Source: Candidatus Hydrogenedentota bacterium
Lineage (GTDB): Bacteria; UBA8481; J006
Assembly (NCBI GenBank): GCA_003697085.1
Contig: RFFU01000077.1
Coordinates: 1 to 32,508, forward strand
DNA length: 32,508 nucleotides
Reading direction: 5' to 3'
Positions 3,491-26,120 of this stretch are shown piece after piece (the stretch's first letter is position 1; each line of letters opens with the position of its first letter). The notes beneath the pieces were generated by a model. It was not told where the DNA came from and made no database searches. It was given only the letters and a program-made list of their open reading frames with translations. Position numbers and translations under genes: made by a program.

Positions 3491-4212
3491 CGAGGAGAGG
3501 AGCAGAGAGCGGTTCCGGGGACGGGGGCACGGGAGGGAGCGGCGATTTCGAGAAGAACGTTCGCGTCATTTTGCAAAGCCGCGTGGGATCCACACGGACT
3601 CCGGGGAAGGCCCTTGCGGACCTCGGCGGACGGACGTTGACCGAGCAGGTGATGTTTCGGGCCGAAGCGGCTTTTGGGCGGCCGGGAATCCTGGCGATTC
3701 CCGATTCTCCCGAAAACGACCCGCTCGAGGCTCTTGCGCGGCGAAGGAAATGGGACGTTTTTCGAGGAAGCGAAGAAGACGTTCTGGGACGCTTTGCCGG
3801 TGCGGTGGAACGGTTCGGGCCGAAGGTGGTGGTGCGTGTCACAGGAGACAACCCGTTTTTGGCTCCGGAGGCGATGCGCGGCGTGGCGGCCGGAGTGGTG
3901 GAAGGAGCGGATGCGGCCCAGGCCCGCGGCTGGCCGTACGGGACGGGAAGCGAAGCGGTTCGGGCTGAACTTCTTATCCAAGCCGCCAGGGAGGCCCGGG
4001 ATCCGTACGAACGCGAACACGTGATGCCGTTCTTCTATCGAAGACCCGACCGTTTTCGATTGTCGTATTTCGACTGTCCGTATCCAGGCGCCGGGAAGAT
4101 TCGATTGACGGTTGACACCCCAAGTGACCTTGATCGGGCACGCCGGCTCTTCGCACGTTTCGGAGCGAGTGTTTCGATACAGATCCTCATCAGGGAATTG
4201 AGCATCCTTTGA
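3487..4212 (+). CDS. SpsF-like cytidylyltransferase/glycosyltransferase family protein
   Basis: Resembles the SpsF/CMP-sugar synthetase family, which activates sugars for surface polysaccharides. Diagnostic parts are the nucleotide-binding N-terminus VILQSRVGSTRTPGKAL, the segment FRGSEEDVLGRF, and VVRVTGDNPFLAPE, which matches the family's usual VVRITGDCPL-type block. The frame is open from ATG 3361, with further starts at ATG 3424 and GTG 3487. I chose GTG 3487 because it overlaps the acpS stop as GTGA and avoids a long stretch inside acpS; ATG 3424, preceded by GAGGG, is a real alternative. About 20 low-complexity residues precede the conserved domain. Its place before waaA suggests envelope glycan work, but the sugar substrate is unknown, and KdsB is less likely from the motifs. 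Confidence 0.75.
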   Translation: MTRRGAESGSGDGGTGGSGDFEKNVRVILQSRVGSTRTPGKALADLGGRTLTEQVMFRAEAAFGRPGILAIPDSPENDPLEALARRRKWDVFRGSEEDVLGRFAGAVERFGPKVVVRVTGDNPFLAPEAMRGVAAGVVEGADAAQARGWPYGTGSEAVRAELLIQAAREARDPYEREHVMPFFYRRPDRFRLSYFDCPYPGAGKIRLTVDTPSDLDRARRLFARFGASVSIQILIRELSIL

Positions 4213-4375
4213 CTCAAGACGTTCGAGCGTCTTCAGTGCCCGGTGAACAGCGATCTTTCCCCCACAAATTTTTCCGATGAACCAACTTCGACATCCCGCG
4301 GTGGAAGGGAAGAGAAGTCCCGGCAGGAGTCTCGATCTATTCTCCAGCGTGTTTCTCTGATAACGTTCCTCGGTG

Positions 4376-5740
4376 ATGTACAGAAAAGATTCGACAGTTC
4401 CACGCGGGTACGGAATTCTCTATTCCCTCTTTCTTCTCGGGTCCGCCCCTCGCTATCTTCTTCGCACCGTCCGGAACCGGAGGGGGCCGGGAATTGTGCA
4501 ACGTTTCGGTCTCGGGGTTGGTTTCCCTTCGACGCGCGCGGGGGATTGTCGTCTTCCGGGTGAGGGTTCGGAACGGGTTTCGAAGAGAGAAAGAGACATT
4601 TCAAGGCGTGATTCTTCGACCTCCGATGTGCGCTCCGACCGCTCCGTTCGTCCGGCGCGGTCGCTGTGGTTCCACGCGTGTTCGGTCGGGGAGGTCGAAA
4701 CCGCGATGCCGCTCGTGCGCCTCTTCGCACGGGCCTATCCGGACGATGCGTTGATCCTCTCGACGGTCACGGAAACGGGGCAGGCTCGGGCGCGAAAACT
4801 TCTCGGCAATGAATTCGTGCGCTATCTTCCGTTCGATTTCGGTTTTGCGATCCGAAGGCATCTCTCCTCCGTCCCCCTTCCGCGCTTCTTCATCGTGATG
4901 GAGACGGAGATTTGGCCGAAACTCTACTCGGAATTGTCCCAACACAACATTCCGCTTTTCATCGCCAACGGCCGAATCAGTGACCGGGCCTGGCGGCGGT
5001 ACCGCCGCGCCGTGGAATTCCTTCGCGGGACGATGGCGTGTGTTCGAGCGGTCGGAGCGCGGACGGTGCAGGATGCCGAGCGATTCCGAATTCTCGGGGC
5101 ACGGAACGTCTCGGTTCTCGGGAATATCAAGTTTGATCGGGGCGCCGCGCCGGCCCCGGAAGGAATGCCGTCGGGGAAATTCCTTCTCTTCGCCAGCACG
5201 CATCCGGGAGAGGATGAGTTATTTGTGAGAACGTGGCGGTCCTTGAGAAACCGCTTTCCTCGGCTGCGTGCCGTTCTCGCACCGCGGCATATCGAACGGG
5301 CCCCCGCGCTTGCAAAGAAATACGGCGGAGCGTTGCGAAGCGCCGGGTGGAAGGACGAATCCCTTCTGGTCCTGGATACGCATGGAGAGTTGGCCGGGCT
5401 TTTTTCGGGCGCGACCGTGGCGATCATCGGAGGTTCCTTCGTGCCGCACGGCGGGCATAACCCCTTCGAGGCTGCGGTCCAGGGAGTGCCGATTCTTTGG
5501 GGACCGCATATGCAGAATTTCCGCGACGCGGTGGAAGTTTTGGAGGGCCGGGGCGGTGAGACCGTTCGAGAAAACGAGGAATTGGCGGAGGCTTTGGAGG
5601 CTCTTCTCTCGGATGAAGATTTAAGGAGGCAACGCGGTGCGGCCGCGAGGGCGGCGGCTTCGGAGAATACCGGCGCGGCGGAACGCCACTTCAATTTCTT
5701 CAGAGACCGATTGTTCGAGGGAGAGGGGGAAAGGCGATGA
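4376..5740 (+). CDS. waaA: 3-deoxy-D-manno-octulosonic acid (Kdo) transferase
   Basis: Adds Kdo from CMP-Kdo to lipid A precursor at the inner membrane. A hydrophobic N-terminus (YGILYSLFLLGSAPRYLL) fits the membrane anchor. The conserved WFHACSVGEVETAMPL block carries the catalytic-type Glu, and near the C-terminus GGSFVPHGGHNPFEAA plus WGPHMQNF match the GT-B fold nucleotide-sugar site of the family. Length is 454 residues against about 420-430 usual. The excess sits between the anchor and the SVGE block as a polar, low-complexity stretch rich in Arg, Ser and Asp. ATG 4376 was chosen; GTG 4373 just before it is possible. The last bases overlap the next gene as ATGA. The 160-base gap before it holds a small hairpin (4216-4233) but no evident gene. 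Confidence 0.92.
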   Translation: MYRKDSTVPRGYGILYSLFLLGSAPRYLLRTVRNRRGPGIVQRFGLGVGFPSTRAGDCRLPGEGSERVSKRERDISRRDSSTSDVRSDRSVRPARSLWFHACSVGEVETAMPLVRLFARAYPDDALILSTVTETGQARARKLLGNEFVRYLPFDFGFAIRRHLSSVPLPRFFIVMETEIWPKLYSELSQHNIPLFIANGRISDRAWRRYRRAVEFLRGTMACVRAVGARTVQDAERFRILGARNVSVLGNIKFDRGAAPAPEGMPSGKFLLFASTHPGEDELFVRTWRSLRNRFPRLRAVLAPRHIERAPALAKKYGGALRSAGWKDESLLVLDTHGELAGLFSGATVAIIGGSFVPHGGHNPFEAAVQGVPILWGPHMQNFRDAVEVLEGRGGETVRENEELAEALEALLSDEDLRRQRGAAARAAASENTGAAERHFNFFRDRLFEGEGERR

Positions 5741-6729
5741 AAATTATCGTCCGAATGCCGAACTGGCTCGGCGATCTCGTGATGGCCCTGCCCGCGGTTC
5801 GGGGACTCCAACAGAATTTCGCCACGGGGGGGCCCAGAGGGTGGGGCGGGGAACCTCCCGAAATCGTTCTCGCGCTTCGAAAGCCGTTTGCGGATCTTTT
5901 TCCAAAGGAACGCCTTTGTGTCTTGGATGGATCGGAAACGGCCGCTTTGCGAAGGGAAGGCGCAGACCGAATCGTTCTGATGACGAATTCCTTTTCCACG
6001 GCTCTTGCGGCGTATCGCGCGGGGATTTCGGAGCGGATCGGATATTCGCTCCACGGCCGCCGCTTGTTGCTGACGTGGCCATTGGATTGGAAAGCGCGAC
6101 CGCATCATCAAAGGGATCAATACCGCCAATTGGCTCGCGCCGGTGGCGCCGCCGGCACACCCGAAACGGCGCGATTGAATCCGAAGGATTTTCCGAGAAT
6201 GGCGGGTCTGGAAAAAACGGAGAAGAGGCGGCGCCGGATCGTTCTGGCTCCGGGAGCGCGTTACGGGGCGGCGAAACGTTGGGGGGGATTCGGGGAATTG
6301 GCGAGGGAGTTGGTGCAATCGGGGTGGGAGGTGCACGTTGTCGGAGGAAAAAACGAGGCTCCTCGAACTGCAGAGGGAGACTTCCAAGATTGGACGGGAC
6401 GGACGAGCCTTACGGAACTGGCGGGGATTCTTGCGTCCGCGGACCTCGTCGTCGGAAACGATTCGGGAATCGTTCATCTTGCGGCGGCTTTCGGCCGTCC
6501 CGTCGTGACACTCTTCGGTCCGACCGACGAGTCGCGAACTGCGGCGGATGGAGCGGTCGTGGTCCGAGCATCGGGTGTCGATTGCGCGCCATGCCACCTC
6601 CGTGTCTGTCCCATCGACCATCGGTGTATGAAAAGAATCTCGGTGGAGCACGTCATGCGGGCGATCGAGAAAACAGTTTCCGTTGCGGGAGATTCGGAAA
6701 CAGTCTCCGAAGGGAAGAAAGGGGAATGA
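5737..6729 (+). CDS. waaF: Lipopolysaccharide heptosyltransferase (WaaF-like, GT9)
   Basis: A GT9 family enzyme expected to add heptose to the inner core of lipopolysaccharide. It starts MKIIVRMPNWLGDLVMALPA, the typical WaaF N-terminus, and has a strong donor-site region GNDSGIVHLAAAFGRPVVTLFGPT followed by a cysteine cluster (CAPCHLRVC...CM) before the C-terminal helix. It is 330 residues long, a normal length. ATG 5737 overlaps the waaA stop (ATGA), which implies translational coupling. The next gene starts inside its stop codon in the same way. The symbol reflects the N-terminal and donor-site motifs; whether it adds the first or second heptose cannot be decided here. Confidence 0.85.
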   Translation: MKIIVRMPNWLGDLVMALPAVRGLQQNFATGGPRGWGGEPPEIVLALRKPFADLFPKERLCVLDGSETAALRREGADRIVLMTNSFSTALAAYRAGISERIGYSLHGRRLLLTWPLDWKARPHHQRDQYRQLARAGGAAGTPETARLNPKDFPRMAGLEKTEKRRRRIVLAPGARYGAAKRWGGFGELARELVQSGWEVHVVGGKNEAPRTAEGDFQDWTGRTSLTELAGILASADLVVGNDSGIVHLAAAFGRPVVTLFGPTDESRTAADGAVVVRASGVDCAPCHLRVCPIDHRCMKRISVEHVMRAIEKTVSVAGDSETVSEGKKGE

Positions 6730-22180: not shown

Positions 22181-22381
22181 ATGGCGACCGGTACGGTGAA
22201 GTGGTTCAACGACCAGAAGGGTTACGGCTTTATCCAGGATGACAACGGAGGCGACGTCTTCGTGCATCACACGGGAATCTCCGGTGAAGGATTCAAGACC
22301 CTGGGAGAAGGACAGCGTGTTTCCTTCGAGGTGGAGGAGACTCCGAAAGGTCTCTCGGCTCGGCAAGTAACCGTGATCTGA
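22181..22381 (+). CDS. Cold-shock domain protein
   Basis: A 66-residue single cold-shock domain, the normal length for the CspA family. It begins [20 protein letters not shown] and contains RNP1 (KGYGFI, 13-18) and RNP2 (VFVHH, 26-30), the single-stranded nucleic-acid-binding motifs. Such proteins act as RNA chaperones. AGGTGAGG seven bases or so before the ATG serves as ribosome-binding site. The gene stands alone between a promoter and a strong terminator. Whether it is cold-induced cannot be told from the coding sequence. Confidence 0.96.
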
Positions 22382-22400
22382 TCCGGACTTGACGTAACGC

Positions 22401-22440
22401 GGCGTCTTCCCGTTCCGGGGAGGCGCCGTTTCTTATTTCC
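22401..22440 (+). terminator. Intrinsic terminator of the cold-shock gene
   Basis: GGCGTCTTCCC (22401-22411) pairs along 11 positions, two of them G-U, with GGGGAGGCGCC (22417-22427) across the loop GTTCC, followed by the T-rich tract GTTTCTTATTTCC. It starts 20 bases after the stop codon. Confidence 0.8.
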
Positions 22441-22563
22441 TTTTCGTTTCCTGATTCCCCATTTTTTCTTGGAATTCCGTCCGCTCTTCCCCTAACTTGT
22501 TCTTTTGAGACCGTGGCGGTTCGATTTCCTTCTCCGCGGCCGGGAAATGGGAGGGCGTTATCC

Positions 22564-22794
22564 GTGAAGGATGACAGGCTGAAAAAATTTCGCGAAAGTA
22601 TCCACGACGCGAGAAATTATCTCACGGCCCTTCGCTTGAATCTCGAGGTGGCCTTGGACGGTGTTGAAAGAAATTCGGAATCGGCGGTCTCGCTTAGAGA
22701 AGCCCTCGAGCAAGTCGAATCTCTTACACGAGAGATCGAGGACATCCGAAACCTCGTCCTCGAAATGTCCGAAACGTCCCAACGCCGCTCCTGA
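22564..22794 (+). CDS. Small protein resembling a stand-alone histidine-kinase phospho-acceptor (DHp) helix pair
   Basis: A 76-residue all-helical protein. Its first helix contains FRESIHDARNYLTALRLNLE, which matches the H-box of HisKA-type domains (H-D/E-x-R-N-x-L-T), with H14 as the would-be phospho-acceptor; the second helix LREALEQVESLTREIEDIRN matches the return helix of the dimerisation domain. There is no ATP-binding domain after it, and the stop is followed three bases later by the next gene. GTG 22564 follows GGGAGG at about nine bases and is preferred over GTG 22513, whose added residues are Pro/Arg-rich and unlike the rest. A phosphotransfer or dimerisation role is inference; it may be a plain coiled-coil protein that happens to match. 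Confidence 0.6.
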   Translation: MKDDRLKKFRESIHDARNYLTALRLNLEVALDGVERNSESAVSLREALEQVESLTREIEDIRNLVLEMSETSQRRS

Positions 22795-22797
22795 AGG

Positions 22798-23562
22798 ATG
22801 TCTCAGTCCTCTGTATCCCCTCTGACGGCCGTCATACCGGCGGCGGGCAGGGGGACTCGGTTGGGTGTTTTGACCGAGGAACTTCCCAAACCGCTTCTGC
22901 GCATCGACGGGCGGAGAATGATCGAGGTGGTTCTCGAACAGGCCGAACGCGCCGGCGTCGAACGCTTTGTCATCATAACAGGATACAAAGCCGAGGCATG
23001 GGAGAGTTGGCGGGGAGATCTTCCGGCATCGCTTCGGACCCGGGTGTCCTTTTTCCAAAACGAGAATTGGGAGAAATTTGGAAACGGATATTCCGTTCTT
23101 GTTGCGAAGAAATCGGTACCGGAGCGTTTTCTTCTTCTGATGAGCGATCACCTTTTCGCCGTTGAGACGCTGGCGGACCTGATCGAGGCCGGGCCCCCTG
23201 CTGACGAGTGCCGACTTCTCTGTGACTTTTCCCCGCCTCCTTTTCTCGATATCGGAGATGCCACGAAAGTTCACGCCTCGCCGGACGGTCGGATTCACGC
23301 GATGGGAAAGGACCTCGAGGATTTCAACGCCGTCGACACCGGCCTTTTCTATTCGTCCTCCGTCCTTTTCGACGCGCTTCGAGTCTGTTGCCGGCGGGGT
23401 CGAACGGCGCTGACGGACGCCAATCGTTTTTTGGCGGAACAGAACAAGATGAAAGCGGTGAGGAAGAATCCCGACCGAGGTTGGTGGTGTGACATCGATA
23501 CCGTCCGTGATTTAGAGAACGCCGTGCGGCTTTTCGATCCTATCGAGAAACGAGCGGATTAA
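22798..23562 (+). CDS. Nucleotidyltransferase resembling CTP:inositol-1-phosphate cytidylyltransferase
   Basis: A 254-residue MobA/GlmU-type nucleotidyltransferase. The glycine-rich loop IPAAGRGTRLG (13-23) and ELPKPLLRIDG form the nucleotide site; FGNGYSVLVAKK (94-105), LLMSDHLF (113-120), IGDATKVHA (152-160) and MGKDLEDFNAVDTGLF (169-184) follow the order I know from the cytidylyltransferase half of archaeal and thermophile IPCT/DIPP synthase proteins; WCDIDT (230-235) gives the second metal site. The fused CDP-alcohol phosphatidyltransferase half of those proteins is absent. It starts three bases after the small helical gene. Choline-phosphate or other sugar-phosphate cytidylyltransferase activity is the alternative. 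The 163-base gap before the convergent FecR gene shows no gene. Confidence 0.75.
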   Translation: MSQSSVSPLTAVIPAAGRGTRLGVLTEELPKPLLRIDGRRMIEVVLEQAERAGVERFVIITGYKAEAWESWRGDLPASLRTRVSFFQNENWEKFGNGYSVLVAKKSVPERFLLLMSDHLFAVETLADLIEAGPPADECRLLCDFSPPPFLDIGDATKVHASPDGRIHAMGKDLEDFNAVDTGLFYSSSVLFDALRVCCRRGRTALTDANRFLAEQNKMKAVRKNPDRGWWCDIDTVRDLENAVRLFDPIEKRAD

Positions 23563-23725: not shown

Positions 23726-25045
23726 TCACCTCGTCAATGTGTTCGTGGTGTCTGTCAATTCGGAGGAGGGAGGCGGCGGAGGCGGGCGGAAGTTGGGAAG
23801 TCGTCTGAGGGGAAGCCGAGGCCGTGGAATGTTACGGTTTCGCAAAAAACGCGTTCGCGTGGGCGAAGTCGCCAAGTTGCCGTGACGCATTCGATCCGCA
23901 ACGAATTTCTGGACGGGCGCCGGAAAGGCGTTGGGGGATTTCGCTGTCTGGACCATCACTGATTTCGGAATCGGTACCGGGTGAAGGCGCCCTGCGTTGG
24001 CGGACGGCGCTCTCGCGCCCGCTTGGGGCCGCATCCCATAACCGCTTCCACCCGAGACAGGATGCGCTCCCGCTGCTTCGCCACCTTTTTGTGGTCTTGC
24101 TACATTTCCGGGACGGTTACCCCTGTGCGCCAGTCCGGAAGCCGGCTTGCCGGAGCCAGGCCTTGCCGCGACGGGGCCCTTGGCAACTTCCTTCCTTCGC
24201 TCCTTCTTCTTCGTTGCGTAAGAATTCGCGAATTTCGCGGGAGCGGCGAGATCTCCGCCCCGTTTTCTCTTCCCCATCTCGGAACGGATATACTTTCTCA
24301 AAGATCTGACGGCTTTTTTTCGAGCGGCCTTCGCGGCGTTTCCCGCCGCCGGCGGGCGAGCCCCGCGCATCTGAATATGATATCCCGCTCTCACGATCGT
24401 GGGAGCGATCGTGGGAGCCGAGAGATCCTGCACGGCCACCGAACCTTCGAAGACGGAAAAGTTGACGTCGTAGGTCGGCTCACCACCGGACGCACCCGCT
24501 TCGTTTCGCACGACGTCCGCTTCGAAAACCGTTCCCCGAACCCCGGCCACGGCTACGGGCGTGCTCACCGTGAAATCGCGTCCGCTTAGGCGCGATAACG
24601 CCGGAAGGACGGACCCCTCCTCCAGATGAAGATGATACGCCCCCGTCGCTTTGTTCTTGAAGAGAAACTGCCCTCGGACGGATTCCGTTGTATTTCGCAC
24701 CTCTTCCAGGTCAACTTCGGTCTTTTCCATTACGCGCACAAGGTTCCCCGGCGAAAGTTCAATGATGCACCACGCGCCCTTTGCCGTCCGAAGGGCATAG
24801 CCGGAACGCAACCGCATCTTTCGACTGGCGCGTACCCATTCTTCGTCCGGACTCGTTCGCGCCTCGACCTTCCCGAAAAGGCTTACGATCAACGCGTCGC
24901 GGCCGGCGGCGGATACCGGAACGACTTCCCCGCTCAAGAACAGAAGTATCAGAACGAGGGGAAGAAGGAGGAAACGTCTCCCCAGGATTTCCCGCCCCAC
25001 GGTTCGGAAATCAGAAGTAAAGGAGCCCCTGAAGAACGAATTCAT
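23726..25045 (-). CDS. Secreted FecR-domain protein with long basic, Pro-rich tail
   Basis: A 439-residue exported protein. A signal peptide occupies about 24-48 (RRFLLLPLVLILLFLSGEVVPVSAA). A FecR domain spans about 88-215, recognised by RTAKGAWCIIELSPGNLVRVMEKTEVDL and by FTVSTPVAVAGVRGTVFEADV (158-178). The remaining half is low complexity, rich in Ala, Gly, Arg, Lys and Pro, with a six-proline run before the C-terminus. Unlike anti-sigma FecR it has no inner-membrane helix after the signal peptide and no sigma factor gene nearby. ATG 25045 has AAAGGAG at ideal distance and overlaps the end of the porin gene by 35 bases, so the two are co-transcribed. The earlier start at 25135 would lie deep inside the porin gene and is rejected. 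Confidence 0.8.
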   Translation of the reverse strand: MNSFFRGSFTSDFRTVGREILGRRFLLLPLVLILLFLSGEVVPVSAAGRDALIVSLFGKVEARTSPDEEWVRASRKMRLRSGYALRTAKGAWCIIELSPGNLVRVMEKTEVDLEEVRNTTESVRGQFLFKNKATGAYHLHLEEGSVLPALSRLSGRDFTVSTPVAVAGVRGTVFEADVVRNEAGASGGEPTYDVNFSVFEGSVAVQDLSAPTIAPTIVRAGYHIQMRGARPPAAGNAAKAARKKAVRSLRKYIRSEMGKRKRGGDLAAPAKFANSYATKKKERRKEVAKGPVAARPGSGKPASGLAHRGNRPGNVARPQKGGEAAGAHPVSGGSGYGMRPQAGARAPSANAGRLHPVPIPKSVMVQTAKSPNAFPAPVQKFVADRMRHGNLATSPTRTRFLRNRNIPRPRLPLRRLPNFRPPPPPPSSELTDTTNTLTR

Positions 25046-26120
25046 TGTTATCGATCTCCTTTCCCGCGGCATCGCGCGCGCTCTCGAGATTCCAGTCATA
25101 CTCGGCGATGAACTGGAGATACTCTGATGGAGCATAAGTTATGGTGGCGCTCCTCCGCTCTCGGTCCCAGGTCTCCGGGCGTTGGAGCAGTAAAGCGCCC
25201 GTGTTGATATTAAATTTATCGTACGCAAGCCCGAAAGTCACCTGGCCAAAACGGTGAAAAAACGTACGTTGCGCGGAGACGGAATAAACCTCTCTCAACA
25301 CGCGGCCGTCACGGGCTCTAAGAAACTCACCGAAGACCTCGTAAGGTCCCTTTTCATAGTCCACGTCGAAGGAAAAATGTTCCCGTTTGTTCCTTCGATC
25401 CTCAGTCCGGTATTTCAAGAGAAGCGAGGGGGTGAAGGGATTGATGGGATTGAGAAGGCGAAGCTCGGTCGGTGACAATTTTCCTCGTGTATAGGTCAGG
25501 CCCGCCGTAAGACTCCCCCACGGTTCCCCGAATTCCACGCCCCCGCGGAGATAAACATCGCGGAGATGGTTCAGATTCCTATCGGAAATATGCATCTGGG
25601 AAAGGATGGGCGTACCCGCCACCCGAGACGCCAGTGTCGGAATGGCCAGCGGATTCCCGTTGACATAACCGAACTCGGTGACGAAGGGATAGGATTCAAA
25701 GTTGAACTTAACGCCCACGTCGGGAAATGCGTGCACGAGAAGCGCGGGGAAGGAGAGGTTGGCAAGAGGAATGGGAGCACCAAGTGGTTTGTAGAAGCGG
25801 CCGAAGGTGAAACTTCCGTTCGCGGGGAGCCCGCTTATCTTCACCCACGCTTCGTCGAGACTGACGCTGCTGCCCGTTCCGACAACGCGAACATAGGTCG
25901 TTGTGAAATCCCCGAAATAGCCCGTGAAATTGACCCCGACCTGTTCGTACTTCAGTCCGTCCGTGTCCGTGTTCGGAACGTTATTCGCCTGGATGTCGTT
26001 GAAAGAAGCGAGGAAATCGGCGGAGACGTCCACCTGCGCCGCCGTTGCCCGCGGGGCAAGGCGGACGAGAAAGATTCCCGCCACAGAAAGGATACCCAGA
26101 CAGAAAACAAAGCGATTCAC
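25011..26120 (-). CDS. Porin-like outer-membrane beta-barrel protein
   Basis: A 369-residue exported protein starting at GTG 26120. Residues 1-27 are a signal peptide (VFCLGILSVAGIFLVRLAPRATA). The mature part is a run of amphipathic strands with many aromatic girdle residues (VGVNFTGYFGDFTTTYVRVVG, GSFTFGRFYKPLG, VKFNFESYPFVTEFGYV, GSLTAGLTYTRG, EHFSFDVDYEKG, ATITYAPSEYLQFIAEYDW, each here in part), ending FVLQGLLYF with a terminal Phe. This fits a 16-strand general or substrate-specific porin; the DEAWVKISGLP...FGRFYKPLG region recalls OprO/OprP-type porins. The transported substrate is unknown. Upstream of the GTG, GAGAAAGAGAGAA gives a plausible ribosome-binding site. Confidence 0.8.
   Translation of the reverse strand: MNRFVFCLGILSVAGIFLVRLAPRATAAQVDVSADFLASFNDIQANNVPNTDTDGLKYEQVGVNFTGYFGDFTTTYVRVVGTGSSVSLDEAWVKISGLPANGSFTFGRFYKPLGAPIPLANLSFPALLVHAFPDVGVKFNFESYPFVTEFGYVNGNPLAIPTLASRVAGTPILSQMHISDRNLNHLRDVYLRGGVEFGEPWGSLTAGLTYTRGKLSPTELRLLNPINPFTPSLLLKYRTEDRRNKREHFSFDVDYEKGPYEVFGEFLRARDGRVLREVYSVSAQRTFFHRFGQVTFGLAYDKFNINTGALLLQRPETWDRERRSATITYAPSEYLQFIAEYDWNLESARDAAGKEIDNNEFVLQGLLYF

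Follow-up and report, generated by a model that had tools for sequence, protein, structure and literature searches.

A predicted stand-alone HisKA-type DHp protein encoded beside a probable inositol-phosphate cytidylyltransferase gene in a Candidatus Hydrogenedentota bacterium

HisKA domains (PF00512), the DHp domains of sensor kinases, are normally joined to their kinase. In the phosphotransferases Spo0B and ChpT, a DHp-type bundle acts as the phosphotransfer intermediate (PMC3433190 for ChpT). Both additionally carry a degenerate CA-like domain. HisKA domains bear the motif H-E/D-x-x-T/N, whose acidic position supports kinase activity and whose Thr or Asn supports phosphatase activity (PMC3510030). 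The studied precedent for a split kinase is the CheA3/CheA4 pair of Rhodobacter sphaeroides, whose acceptor, a CheA-type P1 domain, and ATP-binding domain reside on separate co-encoded proteins (PMC3591291). In archaea, nonenzymatic histidine kinase-like proteins with HisKA but no HATPase have been described, and an acceptor, transfer, or phosphatase role was proposed for them (PMC5847659). Here, we describe a mini-protein of 76 amino acids that shares with the HisKA domains of sensor kinases the two-helix hairpin, the H-E/D-x-x-T/N motif, and the placement of the His within helix 1, but differs from these kinases in being a stand-alone protein (65 to 76 aa in its known members) with no HATPase, no sensor, and no proline after the Asn. 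It has the HisKA-like domain, conserved His, and lack of HATPase of the archaeal proteins but none of their N-terminal PAS, GAF, or other sensor domains. Like Spo0B and ChpT, it is predicted to be of the DHp-bundle type; unlike them, it stops after the second helix, and no CA-like domain follows. An acceptor-only protein of this size appears to occur naturally in this lineage.

The DNA analyzed (the window) is a 32,508-nucleotide stretch corresponding to contig C111 of a MAG (3.2 Mb, 94.6% complete). The mini-gene lies at positions 22564 to 22794 on the forward strand, with a GTG start at 22564, a TGA stop at 22792 to 22794, and a probable ribosome-binding site, GGGAGGG, read directly from the sequence at 22549 to 22555 (forward strand). 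Its GC content by codon position (0.60/0.36/0.60) resembles that of the neighboring genes. A forward-strand cytidylyltransferase gene (22798 to 23562; 254 aa) follows after three nucleotides, the junction reading TGA AGG ATG (22792 to 22800); both open reading frames, and the three-base gap that the earlier note had described, were confirmed from the sequence. Since the cytidylyltransferase ATG at 22798 has no well-spaced Shine-Dalgarno sequence, its translation is likely coupled to that of the mini-gene. The two open reading frames share one frame and are separated by the single TGA. We considered an in-frame fusion produced by TGA read-through and rejected it: TGA is the usual stop of many window genes and therefore a real stop here, and the cytidylyltransferase start is the usual one for its family. 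Upstream on the same strand, a cold-shock-domain (csp) gene (22181 to 22381; CSD, E = 1.9e-26) probably forms a separate transcription unit. A terminator-like hairpin with 14 pairs and a T-rich tail lies between the two genes (22399 to 22429, forward strand); the count of terminator-like sites in the region was not above the shuffled expectation, and this stem was the longest. Downstream, the opposite strand carries a FecR-domain gene (23726 to 25135) and, adjacent to it, a gene (25011 to 26120) for a predicted protein with no Pfam match up to E = 1.

The best Pfam match of the mini-protein was HisKA (E = 1.3e-4; 22.3 bits, below the curated cutoff of 26.9), and its best NCBIfam matches were likewise kinases, all far under cutoff. 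No Hpt domain (PF01627) was among its Pfam matches up to E = 1, and Pfam searches found no HATPase domain within the open reading frame or adjoining it. The best sequence match in the PDB was the kinase AdeS (weak, E = 0.047), with H14 of the mini-protein falling on the AdeS H-box His. We then scored the mini-protein against a profile derived from the DHp segments of eight kinases, of which seven came from the window MAG and one from the genome of a relative (G001, below). The mini-protein reached 19.4 bits and its relative 17.2 bits, scores attained by none of 2,000 shuffled sequences, and H14 aligned with the phospho-acceptor histidines of the kinases. H14-D15-x-x-N18 (HDARN) constitutes the H-E/D-x-x-T/N motif, and the same motif is present in the relative. 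An AlphaFold2 model made from two input sequences showed a two-helix hairpin (helices 2 to 33 and 39 to 75; pLDDT 92). Its top Foldseek match was the kinase ZraS (weak E value), and the DHp regions of CpxA and ERS1 were among the other fold matches; because helical hairpins are common, match many unrelated folds, and are not specific to DHp domains, these matches are no more than consistent with DHp identity. Despite scores below cutoff in both members, homology to HisKA is likely. We therefore regard the 76-aa protein as a real stand-alone DHp domain of HisKA type, as predicted from sequence and structure modeling, in agreement with the earlier note's reading of a two-helix, H-box protein devoid of a kinase domain.

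Among the genomes searched, one other stand-alone member was detected: a 65-aa open reading frame in G001 (record PEWQ01000207, labeled Candidatus Hydrogenedentes CG07), a bacterium of the same order but a different family. The two mini-proteins share 37% identity (E = 9e-6), and the relative matches HisKA independently (E = 4.1e-4; 20.8 bits, also below the curated cutoff). H14, D15, N18, and the segments NLEVA and EAL are invariant between them. The importance of H14, which the earlier note had proposed to check, is thus borne out in the sole known relative (n = 2). When the alignment of the two proteins was run against GTDB r220 contigs, the G001 locus alone was returned, and viral contigs gave no match. 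Across 386 genomes spanning the domain and 77 genomes of one phylum, all further matches were in long frames, apart from one chance TPR protein. On this evidence, the mini-protein represents a stand-alone DHp restricted to one lineage.

The G001 mini-gene (contig C167, 4493 to 4690, reverse strand) lies in a two-component operon, in the order MerR-type HTH-REC, FapA, HATPase-REC, mini-gene, CHASE4-PAS-HK-REC, double REC, and REC. Its start overlaps by 1 nt the stop of the HATPase-REC gene (4690 to 5742, reverse strand), whose 350-aa product matched HATPase and REC but not HisKA. In alignment, this protein has an Asn at the position of the kinase acceptor His, an assignment that is tentative given its divergent N terminus; its structure model was too poor for use (pLDDT 40). 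The anatomy is that expected of a split kinase, and from sequence the pair looks like a candidate HisKA-type example, in which the mini-protein would supply the missing half. As in CheA3/CheA4, acceptor and ATP-binding domains are on separate co-encoded proteins, but the acceptor here is a HisKA-type DHp rather than P1.

In the window genome, searches gave no such partner: no orphan CA domain was visible in the 94.6% complete MAG, and every recognizable histidine kinase has retained its acceptor His. Contigs C34 and C103 encode hybrid kinases that include receiver domains, but no Pfam Hpt domain was found in this genome or in G001, while control genomes gave Hpt matches. These observations make it likelier that in the window organism the mini-protein works with receiver domains, as a relay or as a phosphatase, a plausible version as judged from gene content. 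We propose that the mini-protein hairpins dimerize into the usual four-helix bundle, that H14 would accept a phosphoryl group in trans from a kinase CA domain or a receiver domain, and that the protein may then hand this group to receiver domains or strip it from them. It is not certain that the two mini-genes, in their differing contexts, share one role. Overall, we put the probability at roughly 60% that this is a free DHp of HisKA type, acting in trans to relay phosphoryl groups or to remove them, and that its adjacency to the cytidylyltransferase gene does not represent a conserved enzyme-regulator pair. Such an acceptor-only protein, encoded in G001 next to a kinase half that appears to lack its acceptor, would provide a minimal HisKA-type split kinase and a small, testable model of how phosphorelays come apart and rewire.

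Three other explanations were weighed. The protein might instead be a dimerization or decoy module, itself unphosphorylated, that inhibits kinases through their DHp or CA domains. Mixed bundles could arise from free DHp-like hairpins, which might also cover a CA or receiver surface, and the failure to find an orphan CA domain among the window organism's kinases is in keeping with this idea; however, a pure decoy would not need the His, the acidic residue, and the Asn, yet both members retain them, and we consider this explanation unlikely. Ranking below it, and improbable in our estimation, is a nonfunctional remnant of a histidine kinase gene stripped of its sensor and catalytic domains. The sequence clearly derives from a kinase DHp, two copies are known, and the score is under the HisKA cutoff, all as a remnant might show. 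Nevertheless, the two proteins are trimmed to equal size and keep H-D-x-x-N across two families at 37% identity, their start, stop, and ribosome-binding sites are intact, and no kinase fragments adjoin the window copy.

The third explanation makes the mini-protein a binding partner and regulator of the cytidylyltransferase, to which it might, for instance, present a phospho-histidine signal or which it might keep dimeric. The enzyme matched the Archaeoglobus IPCT 2xme best (2e-24, over residues 8 to 244), followed by 4mnd (also Archaeoglobus; 1.2e-23) and Thermotoga 4jd0 (1.8e-11); a match to NF041135 (5e-34) was under that model's cutoff. As in these IPCTs, the match spans the whole domain and includes the conserved Arg, Lys, and Asp: R21, K31, and D117 align with conserved family residues, and a second Asp pair (CDIDT) is present. 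By residue type, this set corresponds to the Arg, Lys, and Asp of the Thermotoga active site (PMC12275187). We therefore assign the product as a predicted myo-inositol-1-phosphate cytidylyltransferase (IPCT) making CDP-inositol, in line with the cytidylyltransferase call of the earlier note; since the substrates of related enzymes can include different phospho-alcohols (phosphoglycerate in the case of CpgD; PMC12275187), the substrate is one that we infer.

Regulation of this enzyme by the mini-protein draws support from the arrangement of the genes, which have 3 nt between them, share a frame, and are likely translationally coupled; such tight spacing signals related function in many operons. 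The pair is not conserved, however. The G001 relative lies in its two-component operon, and the IPCT of that genome is a fused bifunctional IPCT-DIPPS on another contig. Among the loci read (L012 to L040 and L111 to L123), the window's is the only case of the mini-gene beside a nucleotidyltransferase gene, and the cytidylyltransferase, run against GTDB r220 contigs, gave no confirmed relative. The earlier note had named a lack of conserved adjacency as grounds for rejection, and by that standard the pairing fails; the test of pair conservation rests on one comparison genome carrying the mini-gene. In addition, the solved IPCTs (2xme and 4mnd) cover the whole catalytic domain, so the fold needs no added module. 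The shared transcript is thus probably lineage-specific rather than that of a conserved enzyme-regulator pair, and the position of the mini-gene looks incidental. Control of the IPCT by the mini-protein is unsupported; since two members are known, we hold it to be improbable rather than refuted, and marginally more doubtful than the remnant. The earlier note's interpretation therefore stands for the DHp reading, for the importance of H14, and for the cytidylyltransferase but not for a functional pairing of the two proteins. That a free phospho-histidine hairpin physically couples two-component signaling to CDP-inositol synthesis by phosphotransfer rather than transcription is the least probable proposal, and a highly improbable one.

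The window enzyme makes sense within an inositol pathway that requires no signaling partner. It ends at 254 aa, with no C-terminal CDP-alcohol phosphotransferase domain, and is monofunctional rather than a bifunctional IPCT-DIPPS. The genome also encodes an inositol-phosphate synthase and, on contig C15 (666 to 1964, forward strand; 3605 to 4762, reverse strand), two proteins that match DIPPS in their C-terminal part; their N-terminal halves are decayed and miss the nucleotidyltransferase motifs. In this genome's inositol pathway, the nucleotidyltransferase is thus separated from its transferase partner. At one locus of a distant genome (L112), the gene for inositol-phosphate synthase adjoins genes for an IPCT that is likewise monofunctional and for a DIPPS-like protein of similar kind.

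A counterpart of the G001 operon was sought in the window genome, and contig C103 was found to carry genes for FapA, PAS, and hybrid-kinase proteins, although the mini-gene is absent from it. Eight FapA-domain (DUF342) proteins are encoded in this genome, on contigs C70, C103, C30, C49, C119, C42, and C52. The genes for two of them, both on C103, adjoin the PAS and hybrid-kinase genes, and a similar operon is present in G001.
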